A DNA stretch of 42,643 nucleotides, from the NCBI RefSeq assembly GCF_030656255.1, contig NZ_JAUSOE010000059.1, forward strand, positions 1-42,643, written 5' to 3'. This stretch comes from Brevundimonas sp. (GTDB taxonomy: Bacteria > Pseudomonadota > Alphaproteobacteria > Caulobacterales > Caulobacteraceae). Below are positions 11,196-34,832 of this stretch, in pieces; the stretch's first letter is position 1; every line of letters starts with the position of its first letter. The position numbers and the translations under genes are program-made. The notes under the pieces were generated by a model that was given only the letters and a program-made list of their open reading frames with translations, was not told where the DNA came from and made no database searches.

Positions 11196-13249
11196 GCGGC
11201 GTAGGGGCGGGGACCGGCGGCCGCGCCGCGTGCGATGTCGGACGAGGTCGTGAGAGGGGCCGAACCGCCGTTCAGCCGGGCCTTATAGACCGCCATATTC
11301 TCCATCACCCGCATCATATAGTTGCGCGTTTCTGTGAAGGGCGCGCATTCGATGAAGTCGATAGCCGCATTGGAATCGCCGCGCGGGTCGCCGCAGCGGG
11401 CGATCCACTGGTTCGGACGCGCCGGGCCGGCGTTGTAGCCCACGGTCGCCAGCAGCATGGAGCCGTTGTTGGCCGTCATCAGCTCGCCCAGGTGATAGCT
11501 GCCCAGGGTCATGTTGTAGTCCGGGTCCCACAGCTGTTCGGCCGAGAAGCTCATGCCCAGTCGACGGGCGACGCCCGAGCCGGTGGCGGGCAGGAACTGC
11601 ATCATGCCGCGCGCGTCGGCGCCCGAGCGGGCGCGGGGATCGAAGCTGGATTCCTGGCGGGTGATGGCCTGGGTGAACTCCAGCGGCGCGGCGCCTGCGA
11701 CCTGGGGCGGGATGCGGATCGGATACATGCGTTCGGGCAGGACGAAGCCGCGCTGGCTGGCGGCGCGACCGACCATCATGGCGGTGAAGCCTTCGCCATA
11801 GCCCCGCGACAGGTCCATCAGCAGGGCCAGGTCCTCGATGGTCGGCAGGTCATTGTCGAGTTGATAAGCGAAGACGCGCAACAGGCTGGTCTCGCCGGTT
11901 TCGCCCAAGATGCGGGTGGCGCGGACAATCTCGTTGGACTCGAACCGGGCGATGTCGGCCTGGGTCGGGGCGGGTTCTCCGGGCAGCTGCAGGCTGGTCA
12001 TGCCCGCCTTCTCGGCGGAGAGCTGGCCGTAGAAGGTCTGCCAATGCTGGGCGCCGTTGCGATAATAGGTCTGGGCGGCCTCGCGCTCGCCCCGGGCCTC
12101 GGCGGCCCGGCCCAGCCAGTAATAGGCCCGGCCCTGGGTGATCGGGGTCGAGGAGGCGGTGCGCAGGGCCTCGAAATGCCGCGCGGCGACCTCGGGCTGG
12201 TTCAGCTTGGTCAGGGCGACCCAGCCGGCGAAGAACTCGGCATCCACCATCCGGTCGCCGGCGGTGAAGCCGTGGCCGTTCATGGCGTCATAGGCGGCGC
12301 GCCAGTTTCCCTGCTGCAGAGCATCGAGATAATAGTTGCGGCGCTCGGTCCACAGGGTGTTTTCACCAGCCGAATGGTCCGGGGCGGGCGGCAGGTTCGC
12401 CAGCAGGGGGAAGGCTTCCGATTGGCGATTCTGCGAGCGCAGGATGCGGACCCGTTCCAGCGTCACCGCCGGATCAGCCGCCTGGGCCGGGCTCAGGCCG
12501 GCGACGACGGCGTCGGGGCTATAGGCCGTGCGCAGGGTCATGACCGTATTGGCGATGCTGGCGCGCTCCGGCGAGACCAGGCTCAGCATGGCGCGCGTCG
12601 CCGGGCCATGGGGGCCGAGCAGCAGCATGTTCAGCCGCGCCTCATGATCGTCAGGGGTCAGCCAACCGCCCCAGCGCGCCAGGATGCGCGATTGCGGCGC
12701 CTCGTCGAAGGATCGGGTCCGCCACCAGTCGCGGATCAGGGCGCGGGCCTCGTCGCGACGTCCACGCTGCTCCAGAGCCGCCGCATTGGCGATGGCGCCT
12801 TGCACGGTCTCGGGCGCGTGGTCGGAGAACAGGGCCATGACGGCGTTCGGCGCGGCGCCTGTGCGGTCCAGCACCACCTCGGCGGCGGCGCGACGTGATT
12901 CGGCGCGAGGCCAGCCGGCGAGATCGGTCTGGGCCTGGGCCAGTTCGGCGTAGGACAGTTGTTCGCCGGATGTATCGATCAGCGCCCATTCCACCAGTTT
13001 GCGGGCGGTCGAGTCGCGTAGCTGCGACATCGCCGACTGGGCGCCGGGGACGTCGCGCGCCCGGGCGGCCGCCAGGCCCTGACGGAACAGCGCCGTATCC
13101 TGATCATTGAGCACCCGGCCCTGATAGGTGGGGCTGTATCCGGGAACAGTTTGTGAGACGGCGGAATAGGGAACAGGTTGACCGGGCAGGGCGTCCTGCG
13201 GGGTCGGGGCGAGGACGGCGAGGGCCGCCGCCAGGCTGGTCGCGATCAT
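11189..13249 (-). CDS. slt: Soluble lytic murein transglycosylase (Slt70-like)
   Basis: About 686 residues. I choose the ATG at 13249 because AGGA lies seven bases before it and it gives a clean signal peptide (MIATSLAAALAVLAP). An ATG six codons earlier (13267) is possible. A long helical superhelical region (tetratricopeptide-like, to about residue 500) precedes the C-terminal SLT domain. The catalytic glutamate is E533 in AITRQESSFDPRARSGAD, followed by GMMQFLPATG and TVGYNAGP. It cleaves peptidoglycan to 1,6-anhydro-muropeptides in the periplasm, during growth or wall insertion of complexes. Confidence 0.94.
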   Translation of the reverse strand: MIATSLAAALAVLAPTPQDALPGQPVPYSAVSQTVPGYSPTYQGRVLNDQDTALFRQGLAAARARDVPGAQSAMSQLRDSTARKLVEWALIDTSGEQLSYAELAQAQTDLAGWPRAESRRAAAEVVLDRTGAAPNAVMALFSDHAPETVQGAIANAAALEQRGRRDEARALIRDWWRTRSFDEAPQSRILARWGGWLTPDDHEARLNMLLLGPHGPATRAMLSLVSPERASIANTVMTLRTAYSPDAVVAGLSPAQAADPAVTLERVRILRSQNRQSEAFPLLANLPPAPDHSAGENTLWTERRNYYLDALQQGNWRAAYDAMNGHGFTAGDRMVDAEFFAGWVALTKLNQPEVAARHFEALRTASSTPITQGRAYYWLGRAAEARGEREAAQTYYRNGAQHWQTFYGQLSAEKAGMTSLQLPGEPAPTQADIARFESNEIVRATRILGETGETSLLRVFAYQLDNDLPTIEDLALLMDLSRGYGEGFTAMMVGRAASQRGFVLPERMYPIRIPPQVAGAAPLEFTQAITRQESSFDPRARSGADARGMMQFLPATGSGVARRLGMSFSAEQLWDPDYNMTLGSYHLGELMTANNGSMLLATVGYNAGPARPNQWIARCGDPRGDSNAAIDFIECAPFTETRNYMMRVMENMAVYKARLNGGSAPLTTSSDIARGAAAGPRPYAAY

Positions 13250-25252: not shown

Positions 25253-28185
<2,933 letters not shown>

Positions 28186-28309: not shown

Positions 28310-28355
28310 ACAACCATGGGAATTCACGCCAGGCGACATGGCGCGTCATGGTTGT
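28310..28355. promoter_or_regulatory. Long interrupted palindrome upstream of the R-body operon
   Basis: Perfect 9-base arms ACAACCATG (28310-28318) and CATGGTTGT (28347-28355) enclose a second short stem, ACGCCA (28326-28331) against TGGCG (28339-28343). It lies about 70 bases before the first R-body start codon. It could be an operator or a hairpin in the mRNA leader. I see no convincing sigma-70 -35/-10 pair in 28186-28424. Confidence 0.45.
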
Positions 28356-28424: not shown

Positions 28425-28763
28425 ATGGCTATTCCGACACCGGTGAACGGTCAGATCACCGACGCCGTCACCCAGGCGAATGTGAAGGTCCTTGGCGACG
28501 CCCCGGCGATGGCCATGGGCGCGATCTATCAGTCGCTCGCCCACTCCACCGGCATTCTCTACGAGAACGCGACCTCCTCGCAGCAACAGCTGGCGATCGC
28601 CGCCCAGGCCGCGACCAATCAGGGCGTGATCCAGATCTACAGCGTCGACACCATGGCCGGCGCGGTCGCCACATCGAAGATCGCCCAGTCGGATACGCCC
28701 GACAACATGATGGCCCTTCTGACGGCCCTGCGCGCCGTCGGTCCCACGGCCGCGGTTTCCTGA
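28425..28763 (+). CDS. RebB-family R-body protein (long form 1)
   Basis: A 112-residue protein of the RebB ('killing trait') family. The signature N-terminus is PTPVNGQITDAVTQANVKVL, followed by APAMAMGAIYQSLAHSTGI and the helical ENATSSQQQLAIAAQAATNQ. R-body ribbons of Caedibacter are built from such small alanine- and glutamine-rich proteins. The ATG at 28425 has GGAAGGAG upstream; the open frame back to 28338 is spurious. No signal peptide or membrane helix is evident. It differs from the next gene's product at about nine of the first 104 positions, so the pair is a tandem duplication. Confidence 0.92.
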   Translation: MAIPTPVNGQITDAVTQANVKVLGDAPAMAMGAIYQSLAHSTGILYENATSSQQQLAIAAQAATNQGVIQIYSVDTMAGAVATSKIAQSDTPDNMMALLTALRAVGPTAAVS

Positions 28764-28803
28764 TTTTCCGTCCCGCAAAACCCAAAACAGAAGGACTTGA
28801 GAC

Positions 28804-29127
28804 ATGGCGCTTCCGACACCCGTCAACGGCATGATCACCGACGCCGTCACCCAGGCCAACGTCAAGGTGCTGGGCGACGCCCCGGCCATGGCCATGGGCG
28901 CGATCTATCAGTCGCTCGCCCACTCCACCGGAATTCTCTACGAAAACGCCGCCTCTTCGCAGCAGCAACTGGCCATCGCCGGCCAGGCCGCGACCAATCA
29001 GGGCGTCATCCAGATCTACAGCGTCGATACCATGGCCGGCGCTGTCGCGGCCAGCAAGATCAGCCAGTCGGACACGCCTGACAATCTGTTGTCCCTGCTG
29101 ACGGCCCTGCGCGCCACGGCGGCCTGA
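28804..29127 (+). CDS. RebB-family R-body protein (long form 2)
   Basis: A 107-residue paralogue of the preceding gene, near-identical through TDAVTQANVKVLGDAPAMAM and IYQSLAHSTGILYENAASS. Differences are mostly conservative and gather near the C-terminus (NLLSLLTALRATAA). It probably forms the ribbon together with its twin, as RebA and RebB are both structural in Caedibacter. It follows after 40 bp with a purine-rich AGAAGGACTTGAG site. Confidence 0.92.
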   Translation: MALPTPVNGMITDAVTQANVKVLGDAPAMAMGAIYQSLAHSTGILYENAASSQQQLAIAGQAATNQGVIQIYSVDTMAGAVAASKISQSDTPDNLLSLLTALRATAA

Positions 29128-29154
29128 CGCCGCCCTTGGATATCCGTGAAGGCT

Positions 29155-29179
29155 GCGGCGGGAGGCTGGCGCCCGCCGC
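29155..29179 (+). promoter_or_regulatory. GC-rich intra-operon hairpin
   Basis: GCGGCGGG (29155-29162) pairs perfectly with CCCGCCGC (29172-29179) around a nine-base loop. It lies between the twin long-form Reb genes and the third gene. Without a U-run it is more likely an mRNA-stabilising, processing or attenuation element than a terminator. It could leave the first two genes more highly expressed. Confidence 0.5.
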
Positions 29180-29200
29180 GCCAACCCCTGGAGGACGACC

Positions 29201-29566
29201 ATGGTCGAGGCGAAGATGAACGAGAAGACGGCGGAAAAATCCGCACAGACCCTCGGCGACTTCGAGGAGATTCTGAAGCTCATGCTGGAGCTCAGCAAGA
29301 ACCCCGCGACGGCCCCCACGGCGGAATCGGTCGCCAATACCCTGCTGACCGTCATCGGCTCGGGTCCCAGCTTCGCGGCGATGCAGAGCCTGGTGGCCGC
29401 CAATCAGGCCAGCGGGATGATGTACCACAACGCCGTCGCCAACCAGCAGACCACAAACATCCTTGGCATGGTCGCGACCATGAACTGCGTCCAGGCGCTG
29501 ATGGACAAGCCGTCCGTCATTCCGTGGCCGGACATCGGTCCGCGTCGTGAGGAGCCATTCGAATGA
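29201..29566 (+). CDS. Small R-body-cluster protein, possibly a diverged Reb relative
   Basis: A 121-residue protein. An acidic, lysine-rich N-terminus (AEKSAQTLGDFEEILKLMLE) leads into a helical region. The stretch SLVAANQASGMMYHNAVANQ, then TTNILGMVATMNCVQAL, recalls the IYQSLAHSTGILYENA...Q..A...AATNQG pattern of RebB proteins. That is my visual reading, not an alignment. It has one cysteine and a C-terminal proline-rich, charged tail. GGAGG precedes the ATG. Its stop overlaps the next gene as ATGA, so the two are made together. Confidence 0.75.
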   Translation: MVEAKMNEKTAEKSAQTLGDFEEILKLMLELSKNPATAPTAESVANTLLTVIGSGPSFAAMQSLVAANQASGMMYHNAVANQQTTNILGMVATMNCVQALMDKPSVIPWPDIGPRREEPFE

Positions 29567-29898
29567 CACGCGAGGACAAGCGATTGAGAACGGAAGAAGG
29601 GCTCGCCGTCTCGGCCTGTCGGGACGACGCCCTGCTGCTGTGCGCCGGAGCCGGCGTGTGCAACGCCGGTCTGATCACCATCATGGCCTCGGCGGACGCC
29701 TTCGCCGCGCGTCTGGCCGCTTCGACGCAGCATGCGGCGGAACTGTCGACGCTGCAGATCCGGCAACTGGCGGCCAGTCTGTCTGACATGCAGCAGGTTC
29801 GCACGGTCCGGACTGCCGACGTCGGCGTGCGGTCGGTGTCGCAAGTTCGTCAGGAGCCTGCGCCATCGGCCTTCTACGGCGCGCCGGTCGTCACCTGA
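29563..29898 (+). CDS. Unknown small cysteine-containing protein in the R-body cluster
   Basis: A 111-residue product I do not recognise. The N-terminus is charged (MTREDKRLRTEEG). Then come three cysteines within about 17 residues (VSACRDDALLLCAGAGVCNA). An alanine-rich helical middle (ASADAFAARLAASTQHAAEL) and a less ordered arginine/valine/glutamine tail follow. There is no signal peptide. Its start sits in the previous stop codon (ATGA). The cysteines could serve crosslinking or metal binding. Both are guesses. Confidence 0.75.
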   Translation: MTREDKRLRTEEGLAVSACRDDALLLCAGAGVCNAGLITIMASADAFAARLAASTQHAAELSTLQIRQLAASLSDMQQVRTVRTADVGVRSVSQVRQEPAPSAFYGAPVVT

Positions 29899-29925
29899 GC
29901 ATCAAGAAAAGGGGGAGGCTTCGTC

Positions 29926-30150
29926 GTGAGCGACACGGTCAACGCACAGATCACCGACGCCGTCACCCAGACCAACGTCAAGGTGCTGGGCGAGGGGCCG
30001 GCGGAAGCCATGGCCGTATCGGTCCAGGCGGTGGCGCACGCCACCAGTCTTTCGGTCGAGAACGCCAGCCAGACCCAGGGGGGCATGCAGCAGATCAATA
30101 ACGCCGCCGTCGGCGCCCTGATCGCCAAGATTCTCGAAATCGCGGTCTGA
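29926..30150 (+). CDS. RebB-family R-body protein (short form 1)
   Basis: A 74-residue Reb protein: TVNAQITDAVTQTNVKVLGE is the family signature, then ATSLSVENASQTQGGMQQIN and an aliphatic C-terminus (ALIAKILEIAV). It lacks the central AATNQGVIQIYS segment and the tail of the long forms. GTG start at 29926 with GGGGGAGG upstream. Three bases separate it from the next long-form gene. Confidence 0.88.
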   Translation: MSDTVNAQITDAVTQTNVKVLGEGPAEAMAVSVQAVAHATSLSVENASQTQGGMQQINNAAVGALIAKILEIAV

Positions 30151-30153
30151 GCC

Positions 30154-30489
30154 ATGGCCTATCCGACCGCCGTGAACAGTCAGATCACCGATGCGGTGAC
30201 GCAGCAGAACCTGATGGTCCTGGGCGCCGCCTCCACGATCGCCATGGGCTCGATCTATCAGAGCGCGGCCCATTCGACGGCGATCGTGTTCGAGAACGCG
30301 GTCCAGGCCCAGCGCCAGGCCTCGATCTGCGCCCAGGCCGCCACCAACCAGGGCGTGATGCAGGTCTATGAGATGGGAAGCATGGTCTCGGCCATCGCCA
30401 CCACGCGGATCGCCGCCCGACCGCCGGCGCCCAGCCCGCTCGAAAACGCCCTTGTTCTGCTTATCGCCGCCAAACTGCTGAATCTCTAG
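30154..30489 (+). CDS. RebB-family R-body protein (long form 3)
   Basis: A 111-residue Reb protein with AVNSQITDAVTQQNLMVLG, GSIYQSAAHSTAIVFENAVQ and AQAATNQGVMQVYEMGSM. It has a distinct tail: PPAPSPLENALVLLIAAKLL. It has one cysteine (ASICAQ). It is clearly homologous to the first two genes but more diverged and has its own C-terminal hydrophobic end, which suggests a different place in the ribbon. It follows a short-form gene by three bases, so translation is likely coupled. Confidence 0.9.
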   Translation: MAYPTAVNSQITDAVTQQNLMVLGAASTIAMGSIYQSAAHSTAIVFENAVQAQRQASICAQAATNQGVMQVYEMGSMVSAIATTRIAARPPAPSPLENALVLLIAAKLLNL

Positions 30490-30508
30490 AATTGTCAGGA
30501 TCTGAACC

Positions 30509-30742
30509 ATGGCCGCCGACACGCCCGTCAACTCGCAAGTCACCGACGCGGTCACCCAGACCAACGTTAAGGTGCTGGGCGAAGCGCCGGCCCAATCGAT
30601 GGCGCTGGTCTATCAGAGCATGGCCCATTCGATCTCTCTGGCCATGCAGAACGCCCAGCAGGCGCAAGGGGGGCTGCAGCAGATCGGCAACGCCGTCACC
30701 TCCAGCGCCGTCACCATGATCATGAACGCGGCGCAGAAATAG
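30509..30742 (+). CDS. RebB-family R-body protein (short form 2)
   Basis: A 77-residue Reb protein with TPVNSQVTDAVTQTNVKVLG, then YQSMAHSISLAMQNAQQAQG and a methionine-rich end (VTMIMNAAQK). It resembles short form 1 (shared TDAVTQTNVKVLGE and QGG-QQI-NA). The cluster thus alternates short and long members here (short, long, short). Confidence 0.9.
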   Translation: MAADTPVNSQVTDAVTQTNVKVLGEAPAQSMALVYQSMAHSISLAMQNAQQAQGGLQQIGNAVTSSAVTMIMNAAQK

Positions 30743-30773
30743 CGCCTTCATCTGAAACGAGAGCTTTCGCGCC

Positions 30774-31157
30774 GTGACCGAACCGACCGTCAACAGCCAG
30801 ATCAAGGACGCCGTTCAGACCTCGACGAACTGGGCGCTGGGCTTCGCGCCGCTCGAGCAGGGCACGCCCTCGACCTCGACGCGCGTCTCGGCCGGCGGCG
30901 CCATCGCCTACGACAAGGCCACCCAGGCGGCGGCTCTGTCGGTGCAGGACGCCGCCGATTACCAGCGCAACATGCTGTCCATCAGCACCACCGTCCAGGG
31001 CAAGGCCATGGCCATGATGCTGGCGTCGGGCGGGATGAACGAACCGGCGCTTATCGCCTACGCCATGGCCCTGGTCAGTTCGTTCGCGGCGCCGATCGCG
31101 GCGGGCCTGGCGGCGGAATCCGTCACCACGGCGGTCAAGACCTTTCCCAGAAACTAG
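30774..31157 (+). CDS. Diverged Reb-like protein with an insertion
   Basis: A 127-residue product from GTG 30774. TEPTVNSQIKDAVQTSTNWA preserves the Reb VNSQI-DAV start. It is followed by an inserted threonine/serine-rich segment (EQGTPSTSTRVSAGG) and then a helical part (YDKATQAAALSVQDAADYQR). The C-terminal 45 residues are hydrophobic and alanine-rich (LIAYAMALVSSFAAPIAAGL), possibly membrane-interacting. This is the most unusual family member here. A capping, membrane-contacting or chaperone role is speculation. Confidence 0.82.
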   Translation: MTEPTVNSQIKDAVQTSTNWALGFAPLEQGTPSTSTRVSAGGAIAYDKATQAAALSVQDAADYQRNMLSISTTVQGKAMAMMLASGGMNEPALIAYAMALVSSFAAPIAAGLAAESVTTAVKTFPRN

Positions 31158-31180
31158 CCGAAGAGAGAGAAGGAGCAGCC

Positions 31181-31531
31181 ATGTCCCGTTTGACCCTATC
31201 GAAGATGAGCGACGCCGAGGCCGTCGTCCAGGAAGCGGAAACGCTGGAATGGGAGACGCGATGCGAGACCGAGCGGTGGAGCGACGCCGCAGAAGACAGA
31301 CCCTCGGCCGAACGGTTTGAGGAAAGCCAGTCCAGATATCAGGAACTGCGTGCTGCGGCGGAGGCGATGGTCGCCATTCTGTACCGAATGCAGGAGCCGT
31401 TGCTGACCGATCCCTATGCGCCCTGGGCGGCGAAGCTGATGGTCAAGGCGCGCGGCCTGTTGACCGATATCGAAGACGGCGAGCTGGTCGAGAAGATCTC
31501 GTTCGTCTCCGCCGGCTCCGACAAGGAATGA
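31181..31531 (+). CDS. Unknown acidic helical protein in the R-body cluster
   Basis: A 116-residue protein, rich in glutamate, predicted mostly helical by eye: ETLEWETRCETERWSDAAED, then RFEESQSRYQELRAAAEAMV. No family recognised, no signal peptide or membrane helix. AGAAGGAG precedes the ATG. It is cotranscribed by position with the Reb genes. An assembly or chaperone role would fit its acidity but is not shown. Confidence 0.75.
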   Translation: MSRLTLSKMSDAEAVVQEAETLEWETRCETERWSDAAEDRPSAERFEESQSRYQELRAAAEAMVAILYRMQEPLLTDPYAPWAAKLMVKARGLLTDIEDGELVEKISFVSAGSDKE

Positions 31532-31550
31532 GGCCGGACAGGAGGGTTTG

Positions 31551-31811
31551 ATGACAGACGATTCTCCTACGCCTGAGGCCGCCGGCGGCGAGCCGCAGGT
31601 TCCGGCTGCGGATCCCATTGTCGTGGCGGCCCGCCGGATGGTCGCCGAGGTCTTCAGGACCTCGGCTGCGCGCCTGCCGGAGTTGCTGGCGGCTCAGTCG
31701 CCGCCGGACACGCCGATTCCCCAGTTCACCGAGGCCATGATCGAGCAGCTTCAGGTGCAGCTGACGCGGGCTCTGGGGCTGCCGCCCGATGAAGACGGAT
31801 CCGCCCGATGA
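31551..31811 (+). CDS. Unknown small protein in the R-body cluster
   Basis: Eighty-six residues from the ATG at 31551, which has GGAGG six bases upstream; a TTG one codon earlier is open. A proline/alanine-rich first 25 residues precede a helical part (DPIVVAARRMVAEVFRTSAA, FTEAMIEQLQVQLTRALGL). No family recognised. It overlaps the next gene as ATGA. Confidence 0.7.
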   Translation: MTDDSPTPEAAGGEPQVPAADPIVVAARRMVAEVFRTSAARLPELLAAQSPPDTPIPQFTEAMIEQLQVQLTRALGLPPDEDGSAR

Positions 31812-32137
31812 CGGATGCGCAAGGGGCGAGTGGACGACATCTCTATGACTCCATATCGGAGCAGAAACACACGGTCGTCGACAGTTTCGCCGATCAGCGC
31901 GAGCTGTTGAAACGCGCCGTGGCCGAGCAACGCCTGGCGGCCATGCCCGAAGACATGCAGCGCGCGGCGAGGGGGCCTTCCGCCCAGGTCAGTCTCGAGA
32001 TCGTCGAGGCCTTGCAGAAGATCATCGCGCGCGAGGTGACACGGCAGTTGGACCTCGCGATCTGCGCAATGATCGAACGGACCGCCGCATCGTCATCGGC
32101 CGTCGCGCCGGCTCACGAGGCGTCAGCCGGCCAATAG
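31808..32137 (+). CDS. Unknown helical protein, last gene of the R-body operon
   Basis: A 109-residue protein coupled by ATGA to the preceding gene. It looks largely helical: DSISEQKHTVVDSFADQREL, then LEIVEALQKIIAREVTRQLD. No family recognised and no export signal. The pair (31551-32137) may form a heteromer since they are translationally coupled. An AT-rich gap follows before the sigma gene. Confidence 0.72.
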   Translation: MTDAQGASGRHLYDSISEQKHTVVDSFADQRELLKRAVAEQRLAAMPEDMQRAARGPSAQVSLEIVEALQKIIAREVTRQLDLAICAMIERTAASSSAVAPAHEASAGQ

Positions 32138-32160
32138 CTGTCAATATTTGCAAGCATCGC

Positions 32161-32199
32161 GTGAACTGGCTTCACAAAAAGAAATAATGCCCGTCTAAG
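32161..32199 (+). promoter_or_regulatory. Candidate promoter with an overlapping inverted repeat before the sigma gene
   Basis: TTCACA (32171-32176) resembles a -35 box (5 of 6 to TTGACA). Seventeen bases later TCTAAG (32194-32199) is a weak -10. The inverted repeat GTGAA-CTGGC-TTCAC (32161-32175) overlaps the -35, as an operator would. The region is conspicuously A-rich within GC-rich surroundings. Transcription from here would give a leader of about 160 bases. Confidence 0.4.
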
Positions 32200-32240
32200 T
32201 AGTATGACTGGGGCTGTTTCAAACTCTGGTTGATGTGACG

Positions 32241-32332
32241 TCGTCGATCCAGCATCGCGACGAGACCTCGACCGGTACGCTCCCGTTGGTTCTGCCAGGC
32301 CAAGCGTAGGGGGCGAGCTCGTTTTGAGCTTG
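32241..32332 (+). promoter_or_regulatory. Structured leader of the sigma gene: two hairpins
   Basis: TCGTCGAT (32241-32248) pairs with ATCGCGACGA (32254-32263) with a two-base bulge and a five-base loop. CGAGCTC (32314-32320) pairs with GAGCTTG (32326-32332), one G-U, around GTTTT. No coding sequence was recognised in 32138-32367. The stems were found by eye and not folded computationally. Confidence 0.4.
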
Positions 32333-32336
32333 ATGG

Positions 32337-32362
32337 TCACTCCTCACGCCGAGGGGGAGTGA
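32337..32362 (+). promoter_or_regulatory. Hairpin covering the sigma-gene ribosome binding site
   Basis: TCACTCCTC (32337-32345) pairs with the GGGGGAGTGA run ending at 32362 (nine pairs, one G-U). The Shine-Dalgarno sequence GGGGGAG (32353-32359) is inside the stem, eight bases before the ATG at 32368. This would hold translation low unless the stem is opened. Confidence 0.5.
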
Positions 32363-32367
32363 CGGAT

Positions 32368-33105
32368 ATGAATGTCGTCCGGTTGTTTCCGGATTGGGAG
32401 ACGGAAAGCGGAGAGGAAAGGGCGCCTGCGACGCCTTCGCCGCCTGAGCGGCGTTCTGCTTCCCATCGTTCAGCGCCGCGTACGCCGTCGCCTGTCGAGA
32501 TTCTGGCCCGAGCGGCCGGCGGCGATCGGGGCGGGGGTCCAAAAGCCGGGTTGACGCCAGCGGGCGTGATCGCGCGCGCTCTGGACCGGCCGCCGTCAAT
32601 GGACCGCTTCTGGGCGATCTGGATGGCGCATCAGAGCAGTCTGCGGCAGCGAAGCCTGCGGCTCTCCGGCGGCAATCGGGCCGACGCCGAGGACGCGTTG
32701 AGCGCGGCCATGGTGCGGGCGGCCCAGGCCTTTGACCGTCAGCCGGTGCAGAACCCCGGGGCCTGGCTGGTGCGGATCCTGCACAACGCCTGCATGGATC
32801 AGCACCGCCAGAACGCCAATCGCATTCCCATCGCGACAGAGGACGCCGATCTGCCGTCACCCTCCGCCGCCGCCTGGGTCAAGGCGGCGCCGTCGCCGGA
32901 GGAGGCGCTGTCGCAGCAGGAAAGCGATGCAGCCTGGGGCCGGGCCATGAACGCTCTTCCGGCCGCCTTGGTCGAACCCTTGCGGCTTCATCTGGACGAC
33001 TGGAGCGACGACCGTATCGCCGCCCATCTGAACATCAGCCGAGAACTGGTCCGCAAGCGTCGCCAGTTGGCCAAGAACCGGCTGCGGCTGCTGCTGGACC
33101 TTTAG
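32368..33105 (+). CDS. Sigma-70-family RNA polymerase sigma factor of the R-body locus
   Basis: A 245-residue ECF-sized sigma factor with an extra N-terminal region of about 75 residues, rich in proline, arginine and serine and probably disordered. Region 2 spans roughly RFWAIWMAHQSSLRQRSLRL to NPGAWLVRILHNACMDQHR. Region 4 includes ALVEPLRLHLDDWSDDRIAA followed by the helix-turn-helix HLNISRELVRKRRQLAKNRL. I choose the ATG at 32368 (spaced eight bases from GGGGGAG) over the GTG at 32359. Its place after the Reb genes suggests it directs their transcription; no anti-sigma gene is seen. Its TAG interlocks with the convergent dipZ stop. Confidence 0.9.
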   Translation: MNVVRLFPDWETESGEERAPATPSPPERRSASHRSAPRTPSPVEILARAAGGDRGGGPKAGLTPAGVIARALDRPPSMDRFWAIWMAHQSSLRQRSLRLSGGNRADAEDALSAAMVRAAQAFDRQPVQNPGAWLVRILHNACMDQHRQNANRIPIATEDADLPSPSAAAWVKAAPSPEEALSQQESDAAWGRAMNALPAALVEPLRLHLDDWSDDRIAAHLNISRELVRKRRQLAKNRLRLLLDL

Positions 33106-34832
33106 CCGAAGGTGAAGGCGAAGACCTGGACGCCGGGATCGAGAAACTCGATCTCGAAGGTGCGTTCGCGCACTGGGCCTGACTGGCGGATCAACTGATA
33201 CAGGCGCTGCTGGTCGATGCGGCCCACCCCTTGGGCGTCGATGTCGGAGCCGGCGTCGGCGCCGGGCGCCTGGCCGTCGATCAGGACGCGGAAACGCGGC
33301 GTCGCGCCGGTCGCGCCCGGCCCCATGACCAGATGCAGGTCGCGGGCCTTGAAGCGGAACGAGACCCGTCCGCCCGCCGCCGCCAGTTCGGCGTGCTCGC
33401 GCGTCACGCGCCAGCGCCCGACCAGGCTCCAGTCGTTCAGGTCCAGCGGGCTGGCCACATAGGTCTTGACGGCGTCGCGGGCGAGGCCGCCCGGCGAGCG
33501 GAAGTTTTCGGCGCGGGCGTAGCCGACATAGGTCTCGGGCGAGCCGAGCTGGTCCATGGCGGCGGCGGCCTCGGCGCCCTGGGCCTGAACCCGGACCACG
33601 TCGGCGGCGACATCGGCGGCCCCGGCCTCCTTGAGCAGTTGCTGGATGACCCGTTCCGAGCCCTCATAGTCGCCCTCGCCGAAATGGTGGTGGCGAATGC
33701 GGCCCTGGGCGTCGATGAAGTAATGGGCGGGCCAGTACTGGTTCTTGAAGGCGCGCCAGATGGCGAAATCATTGTCCATGGCGACCGGATAGTCGACGCC
33801 GAGACGGCGCACCGCGTCGCGGACATTGGCCTCTGACTTCTCGAAGGCGAACTCGGGCGTATGGACGCCGATCACGACCAGGCCCTGATCCTTGTACTTG
33901 TCGGCCCAGGCCCGGACATAGGGCAGGGCGCGCAGGCAGTTGATGCAGGAATAGGTCCAGAAATCCACGACCACCACCTTGCCGCGCAGTTGCTCCGGCG
34001 TCAGGGGCGGGGAGTTGATCCAGGTGGTGGCTCCGGTCAGGGGCGGCATGACGCCCTCGACCGGCAGGTTGGCCAGGTCCGTCGGGGCCGCGTTCATCGG
34101 CGCGCCGCGGCCGATGGTGGTCAGCAGCGCCTGTTCCAGCCTTCCGGTGCTGCCGGCCGAGATCCGGGTCAGAAGGCCCGTGTCCAGGCCCAGGCCGATG
34201 GCGACGACGCCGATCAGGACAAGGACGCCCAGGCCGCGTCGCAGCCATTCCCCGGCCCCGAGCGCCCCCTTCATCGCCTTGAACACTCGGCCGCCGACGA
34301 CCAAGGCCAGTGCCAGGGATGTGGCGGCGCCCAGGGCATAGGCCAGAAGCAGGACCGTCGTGCCGACGCCCGCGCCTTGAAGCGCCGCCCCGGTCAGGAT
34401 GACGCCCAGGATCGGTCCGGCGCAGGGGGCCCACAACAGGCCTGTGGCCACGCCCAGCAGCAGGGAGGCGCGCACGTCGCCCTGGTCGCCCGACTGGCGT
34501 TCGGCCCGTTCCGTCAGCCATGAGCCCAAGGCCACGAAGGGCCGCATCAAACGGTCGCCGAACTGGGGGATCAGCAGGCTGAGGCCCAGCACCGCCATGA
34601 CCGCGAGCGCGATCCAGCGTCCCGCCTCATTGGCCCGCACCGCCCAGCCGCCGCCCACGGCCGCCAGACTGGCCACACCGGCGAAGGTGATCGCCATGCC
34701 GACCAGCAGCGGAAAGCCGTTGCGCACAAACGGGCGGTCGGCACGGGCGAAGACGAAGGGCAGGACCGGCAGGATACAGGGGCTGACGATGGTCAGGGCG
34801 CCGGCCAGATAGGAAAGCAGGAACAGGATCAT
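33102..34832 (-). CDS. dipZ: DipZ-type CcdA-thioredoxin fusion protein
   Basis: A 576-residue membrane thiol-disulfide protein. The N-terminal half is CcdA/DsbD-like with paired cysteines in SPCILPVLPFVFA and WAPCAGPILGVIL and about six membrane helices. It is followed by a periplasmic thioredoxin-like domain with C296-I-N-C299 (in WTYSCINCLRALPY). A C-terminal beta-rich domain follows, as in mycobacterial DipZ. It likely moves reducing power across the membrane to periplasmic targets or supports cytochrome c maturation. It is divergent from parC over 147 bp. Confidence 0.92.
   Translation of the reverse strand: MILFLLSYLAGALTIVSPCILPVLPFVFARADRPFVRNGFPLLVGMAITFAGVASLAAVGGGWAVRANEAGRWIALAVMAVLGLSLLIPQFGDRLMRPFVALGSWLTERAERQSGDQGDVRASLLLGVATGLLWAPCAGPILGVILTGAALQGAGVGTTVLLLAYALGAATSLALALVVGGRVFKAMKGALGAGEWLRRGLGVLVLIGVVAIGLGLDTGLLTRISAGSTGRLEQALLTTIGRGAPMNAAPTDLANLPVEGVMPPLTGATTWINSPPLTPEQLRGKVVVVDFWTYSCINCLRALPYVRAWADKYKDQGLVVIGVHTPEFAFEKSEANVRDAVRRLGVDYPVAMDNDFAIWRAFKNQYWPAHYFIDAQGRIRHHHFGEGDYEGSERVIQQLLKEAGAADVAADVVRVQAQGAEAAAAMDQLGSPETYVGYARAENFRSPGGLARDAVKTYVASPLDLNDWSLVGRWRVTREHAELAAAGGRVSFRFKARDLHLVMGPGATGATPRFRVLIDGQAPGADAGSDIDAQGVGRIDQQRLYQLIRQSGPVRERTFEIEFLDPGVQVFAFTFG

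Follow-up and report, generated by a model that had tools for sequence, protein, structure and literature searches.

A predicted sigma-controlled R-body gene cassette in Brevundimonas and its promoter signature

R-bodies are spring-like protein ribbons that burst membranes. A 42,643-nucleotide stretch of a Brevundimonas genome (contig NZ_JAUSOE010000059.1, assembly GCF_030656255.1; hereafter the window) carries 12 genes on the forward strand, at positions 28425 to 33105, that very probably constitute an R-body system, chromosomal and controlled by a sigma factor of its own. The support for this reading is fourfold: RebB-family (reb) genes score above the family cut-off, the cassette has been kept together as one unit, the sigma gene co-occurs with it in 11 of 11 carrier genomes, and a common promoter signature precedes the reb operon and the sigma gene. 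A preliminary description, made from the sequence of the window, had proposed such a chromosomal, sigma-controlled system and named a RebB profile search and a locus comparison across Brevundimonas as checks; the comparative results below support the proposal. The switches of reb genes are known in few species, and a sigma factor apparently devoted to them, with a promoter signature short enough to search for, offers a concrete route to the products made alongside the R-body. In these cassettes the signature lies before the reb operon, in most cases also before the sigma gene, and in seven of the 11 before a nuclease-like gene, which makes the questions of switch and payload testable in Ruegeria pomeroyi DSS-3, for example, or in isolates of Brevundimonas and Caulobacter.

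Reb proteins, cassette conservation, and the sigma factor

Six of the eight candidates (reb1-3, orf4, and reb5-8) exceed the cut-off of 24 bits of the RebB model (Pfam PF11747), among them the five clear RebB-type proteins named in the preliminary description (reb1, reb2, reb5, reb6, and reb7; 63.3 to 97.2 bits). Its claim of at least one diverged Reb-like protein is borne out by reb3, the sixth to pass, and its one more possible relative is reb8. The latter has no Pfam match, but alignment of its 11-member profile to a RebB profile constructed for this analysis gives E 1.6e-5 and an HHalign probability of 79%; the reb3 profile gives E 4e-5 and 70% against the same profile. We class reb3 and reb8 as diverged members of the Reb family; reb1, reb2, and reb5-7 are likely the ribbon subunits. 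The six RebB genes are packed in 2.3 kb, where at least three clustered reb genes suffice for the definition, and both QITD and KxxxD/E, reported as the hallmark of primary Reb proteins (PMC13430693), can be read in reb1 and reb5. Variants are present in reb2 (MITD), reb7 (QVTD), and reb6 (QITD without the K). In sequence, the locus fits the definition of an R-body system.

It is unlikely that these reb genes no longer make R-bodies and that their products, still with the Reb fold, build a different polymer or a structure that does not kill. Such a change of function might be read from the seven Reb-type paralogues of 74 to 127 amino acids and from the literature found, seen mostly as titles and abstracts, in which there is no ribbon report for Brevundimonas or Caulobacter. 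It fits poorly with the 90% to 100% identity of reb1, reb2, and reb7 across genera, and with the presence in reb1-, reb5-, and reb7-type proteins of (Q)ITD/VTD and KxxxD/E, which have been described as marking primary Reb proteins (PMC13430693).

RebB was detected in 36 of 390 genomes of the family and in 11 of 131 genomes of the genus, eight of which have six copies. Loci of 29 of the 36 RebB-positive family genomes were taken in; the single-copy genomes G200, G207, G213, G215, G232, G270, and G273, as well as the other of two RebB places in G214, were left out. The 12-gene cassette, with its order kept, is present in 11 of the 390 family genomes (Brevundimonas, Caulobacter, and one further genus), once with an extra reb1 copy. 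Eight of these cassettes belong to the window's genus and each follows recO; for the three from two other genera, the recO, dsbD, and parC of the window were not found within the 20 kb fetched. In five pairs, the window against five relatives, the ratio of nonsynonymous to synonymous substitution rates (dN/dS) is 0 to 0.46 across all cassette genes; constraint is weakest on orf10, and reb1, reb2, and reb7 belong to the most constrained group. Because the order of the 12 genes is repeated in 11 genomes with dN/dS values in this range, the cassette is not a chance arrangement. The orf9 gene of the three cassettes outside the genus was recognized by position and a short residual motif only.

Other arrangements of RebB genes were also observed. 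In many genomes of genus g13, that of Caulobacter sp. SLTY, RebB is encoded by one gene only, and cassette, sigma gene, and signature are all lacking (L062-L069). At the other end, genome G417 has ten RebB-type genes in an array about 17 kb from a sigma gene (L105/L106), the largest seen here.

The sigma-70-like factor, which the preliminary description had placed in the same direction as the reb genes, is of the extracytoplasmic function (ECF) type. It scores above the cut-offs of Sigma70_r2 and TIGR02937 (42.9 bits for the latter) and has no region 3 match; its region 4 match, at 22.4 bits, lies just below the model cut-off of 25.7, so that the ECF pattern of regions 2 and 4 without region 3 is present with region 4 marginal. 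That match stops at residue 242 in a protein of 248, and the C-terminal regulatory extension of ECF41 factors is absent. ATG 32368 is more likely the start than GTG 32359, since MNVVRLFP-like starts are common to the relatives.

Sigma orthologs (E<=1e-15) are present in exactly the 11 cassette carriers among the 390 family genomes, and distant relatives in seven other genomes of a 385-genome sample of the class; in both searches, scoring covered up to seven first-look candidates in each genome. Six of these seven genomes also have RebB, within 10 kb of the sigma gene in five and about 17 kb away in one. By this co-occurrence, the sigma factor belongs to the cassette. A mere neighbor with no functional link to the reb genes could stand 221 nucleotides downstream of orf11, or be separated from it, as in three relatives, by a stretch of 5.5 to 5.7 kb that encodes an autotransporter-like protein and a glycosyltransferase; yet the promoter signature before sigma is kept in those three. 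Since the sigma gene was not found without the cassette in the 390 genomes, and its distant relatives adjoin reb genes in other families, we consider a chance neighborhood highly improbable.

The insert in the three relatives (L037 10510-15378, L038 10275-15143, and L040 7252-12052) carries a gene for an autotransporter-like protein of 1085 to 1110 amino acids and a family-4 glycosyltransferase gene; the L037 copy of the former has no Pfam match. In L040, an incomplete metagenome-assembled genome, the sigma gene (12492-13191) appears as two matches split by unresolved bases.

Promoter signature and its link to the sigma factor

The signature was found by aligning the regions upstream of reb1 and sigma in the eight cassettes of the genus. 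TTCAC and CGTC, at a spacing of 16, are conserved upstream of both genes (CGTT in one sigma promoter). TTCAC-N16-CGTC precedes reb1 in all 11 cassettes and sigma in nine; in the three cassettes outside the genus, which were not used for discovery, it is present before reb1 in three and before sigma in two. This distribution suggests that the sigma factor most likely drives both the reb operon and its own gene. Across the 3.35-Mb genome, an extended form, TTCAC-N16-CGTC-N3-G-N2-GT, occurs twice, each time within this locus, and its reversed control does not occur; because the form was derived from these two sites, the count shows rarity and is not an independent test. The whole-genome motif count covers this extended form only. 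An over-specific pattern, GGNTTCACAAA-N13-CGTC, gave three sites in 10 genomes, all in cassettes, and missed most known sites; it was rejected as an enrichment test.

Distant loci suggested a relaxed form, [TG]TCAC-N16/17-CGTC. All 18 reb loci from genomes with a relative of this sigma factor, Ruegeria pomeroyi included, have it 63 to 179 nucleotides before a reb gene; none of the 24 sigma-less reb loci has it before a reb gene, and the background expectation is 0.013 per 230-nucleotide window. The sigma-less group consists of 16 family loci for which sigma was not found genome-wide and eight others judged on the fetched stretch. L043 and L070, the latter with one weak sigma-profile match (8e-7), were left out of the count since the Reb profile built here found no reb gene in them. 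L094 (G417) and L096 (G495) have sigma and no reb gene in the stretch; G417 was counted through its reb stretch L106, and L096 is uncounted. On the Ruegeria pomeroyi DSS-3 megaplasmid, a Crp/Fnr gene, the sigma gene, and RebB genes stand in a row, and three copies of the signature (L128 3923, 6574, and 7564) lie 61 to 63 nucleotides before three genes, two encoding RebB and one a hypothetical protein. One copy is strict and two start with GTCAC.

Several observations weigh against sigma control through this signature. The sigma promoter is not universal, as one cassette has the CGTT variant and one has no site at all; no signature precedes the sigma gene of R. pomeroyi DSS-3, and TTCAC-N15/17-CGTC precedes sigma in only two of the six class-sample genomes with both sigma and reb. 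The [TG] and N17 relaxation was made after the distant loci had been seen, with both groups scored by the same pattern, and the strict form is present in only 12 of the 18 sigma-bearing loci. Strict matches elsewhere occur at the background rate, for example at window position 29150 on the reverse strand and in the left flanks of L034, L035, and L037. When the window is taken by itself, the sharing of a spaced 5+4 word by the two upstream regions lacks significance, as 148 of 500 simulated pairs do as well, and the case for a promoter therefore rests on conservation across genomes. The loci are related and the motif counts are not independent, for which reason no probability is attached to 18/18 versus 0/24. 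Genome G495 (L096) has a sigma relative (E 1e-25) with no RebB match; that relative may serve another target. Neither an anti-sigma factor nor an inducing signal could be recognized, and the support is genomic throughout.

A different ECF sigma factor, for example one of the ECF41 type, might instead read the signature while the cassette sigma does something else. The sequence recognized by ECF41 factors, TGTCACA-n16-CGTC, is almost the same, and many ECF promoters have an element comparable to CGTC (PMC3426412). We nonetheless regard this as quite improbable: the signature tracks the cassette sigma (18/18 versus 0/24) and precedes that factor's own gene in nine of 11 cassettes, and the cassette sigma ends without the ECF41 extension.

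In the most likely reading, a trigger would release or raise the cassette sigma, whose recognition of the TTCAC-N16-CGTC sites upstream of reb1 and of the sigma gene itself would give a self-reinforcing switch. The factor would then transcribe its own gene and the reb1-orf11 operon, and ribbons would assemble, perhaps in only some cells, as for rebP1 in Pseudomonas aeruginosa PA14. A producing cell might be taken up by a grazer or host, in whose acidic vacuole the ribbon would unroll and rupture membranes. Binding of the sigma factor to the signature and the formation of ribbons are steps that we infer from the genomic pattern.

Gene layout and a nuclease-like gene of related cassettes

Gaps between genes from reb1 to orf11 are -4 to 73 nucleotides, compared with 221 nucleotides before sigma, which makes it likely that reb1-orf11 and sigma are two transcription units (Table 1). 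A scan of the locus for sigma-70 promoters found none. Terminator-like sites number six versus 2.9 in shuffled sequences, and two of them lie within the sigma gene. The preliminary description had set the locus between recO and parC, which holds on the recO side; on the right, a DsbD/thioredoxin-like gene (33102-34832, reverse strand) intervenes before parC. A SnoaL_3-domain protein gene (26966-27454) abuts recO, with 49% to 86% identity among relatives versus 93% to 98% for recO.

Table 1 Features of the reb cassette and its predicted promoters in the window
Feature	Position	Strand	Evidence and remarks
Predicted sigma-dependent promoter of reb operon	28323..28347	+	TTCAC-N16-CGTC, 102 nt before reb1; invariant in 8/8 genus cassettes, present in 11/11
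reb1, RebB-family R-body protein	28425..28763	+	PF11747 97.2 bits
reb2, RebB-family R-body protein	28804..29127	+	PF11747 95.3 bits
reb3, diverged Reb with N-terminal extension	29201..29566	+	PF11747 34.1 bits, over cut-off
orf4, no family; C-terminal GAPVVT common to all 11 orthologs	29563..29898	+	dN/dS 0.12-0.37
reb5, short RebB-family protein	29926..30150	+	PF11747 63.3 bits
reb6, RebB-family protein	30154..30489	+	PF11747 74.2 bits
reb7, short RebB-family protein	30509..30742	+	PF11747 75.8 bits; 91-100% identity in 11/11
reb8, distant Reb homolog	30774..31157	+	Profile-profile match to RebB; orthologs in 11/11
orf9, small protein without family	31181..31531	+	8/11 by sequence, 3/11 by position; dN/dS 0.07-0.23
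orf10, Pro/acid-rich N-terminus, no family	31548..31811	+	Start probably ATG 31551; 11/11; dN/dS 0.20-0.46
orf11, no family	31808..32137	+	11/11; 57-61% identity in three distant cassettes; dN/dS 0.13-0.30
Predicted autoregulatory promoter of sigma gene	32171..32195	+	TTCAC-N16-CGTC, exact in 9/11 cassettes
ECF-type sigma-70 factor	32359..33105	+	TIGR02937 54.7 bits, Sigma70_r2 41.4 bits; likely start ATG 32368

The four small genes that had gone unrecognized in the preliminary description (orf4, orf9, orf10, and orf11) have no significant match in family profile searches and no profile-profile link to RebB. They may encode cassette-specific accessory proteins with roles in assembly or regulation. 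The most conserved of the four outside the genus is orf11, which is weakly similar to a 207-residue protein of the Ruegeria reb locus (P 0.006), a lead only. A single weak PADLOC match of orf11 (E 0.0055) was taken as chance.

The signature also precedes a divergent PD-(D/E)XK nuclease-like gene in seven of the 11 cassettes, the window's not among them. Among the 390 family genomes, with up to eight candidates scored in each, this gene was found in those seven only, and not in the window's genome. The earlier term "self-contained" needs qualifying, since seven of the 11 cassettes have this extra, probably co-regulated gene. Residues E79, D113, E131, and K133 are invariant in 22 of 22 nuclease-like sequences and provide the D...ExK core and the upstream helix E. 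The best Pfam match of any of the 22 members has an E value of 0.0076, and one member matches PDDEXK_9 at 0.069. The protein appears to be previously undescribed and is a candidate R-body payload, a role suggested by its likely co-regulation with the reb operon and its exclusive linkage to the cassette. Its absence from four of the 11 cassettes, three of the window's clade and one other, is in keeping with an accessory function and makes involvement in building the ribbon less likely.

R-bodies made in Escherichia coli were not toxic to sensitive paramecia, and a separate toxin has therefore been invoked (PMC3583457). If the payload role is true, the nuclease-like protein could be the long-sought toxin released by R-bodies; against this, no immunity gene is evident. 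As a wider and tentative proposal, possible rather than probable, [TG]TCAC-N16/17-CGTC may be the general promoter code of sigma-driven R-body loci in Alphaproteobacteria, with a sigma regulon of R-body and nuclease-like toxin payload that the window's clade and one other cassette would have lost or replaced with another payload.

In L055 (8231, reverse-complement coordinates), a divergent signature has no nuclease-like gene after it and may be a remnant or chance. An Okeania locus from a nuclease scan was dropped, as the match covered 44 residues only and there was no reb gene; that scan was not exhaustive, having missed the nuclease-bearing genomes G097 and G247.

Comparison with known systems

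Titles and abstract openings of the R-body and ECF sigma literature yielded no report of the cassette, the motif, or the nuclease. Brevundimonas and Caulobacter are not mentioned in the main texts of the 2013 (PMC3583457) and 2026 (PMC13430693) R-body surveys, the latter of which set aside non-Reb neighbors such as sigma factors. The cassette shares RebB-family proteins with Caedibacter taeniospiralis (pKAP298), one of which reb1 matches at 38.8% identity. The Caedibacter system is plasmid-borne, and the stretch examined has three annotated RebB-family genes, no sigma gene, and no motif. The promoter signature is near-identical to that of ECF41 factors as described (PMC3426412), whereas the cassette sigma is without their C-terminal extension and its presumed targets are reb genes rather than COE genes.

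The group 2 synteny of Raymann 2013, as published (PMC3583457), likewise has a sigma gene beside the reb genes, frequent in the group; the likeness to HP2.3 is one of arrangement. Judged by size, HP2.1 and HP2.2 (about 205 to 220 residues) have no recognizable counterpart, since none of the window's unknown proteins is that long. The cyclic-nucleotide/Crp regulator described as HP2.4, frequent and not universal in group 2, is absent from the 12 cassette genes and four flanking genes scanned. Without a Crp-type regulator and recognizable HP2.1/HP2.2, the cassette is not assigned to group 2. R. pomeroyi DSS-3 has the sigma and Crp-type hallmarks of that group as described, and has the promoter signature in common with the window cassette.

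In P. aeruginosa PA14, the reb cluster comprises rebP1P2, rebD, rapA, rcgA, and fecI2; the sigma factor FecI2 and the regulator RcgA are both required for rebP1 promoter activity, which was reported in 0.26% of cells (PMC8322103). A FecI2 logo has been published (PMC4362757); the cassette sigma is likened to FecI2 by published description. The window differs in its seven Reb-type genes, its four other unknowns, and the lack of a recognizable transcription factor besides sigma among the 12 genes. The two systems are alike, as far as PA14 has been described, in clustering reb genes with a sigma factor, which in PA14 is needed for reb transcription, and in having an extra conserved gene that does not encode ribbon protein.

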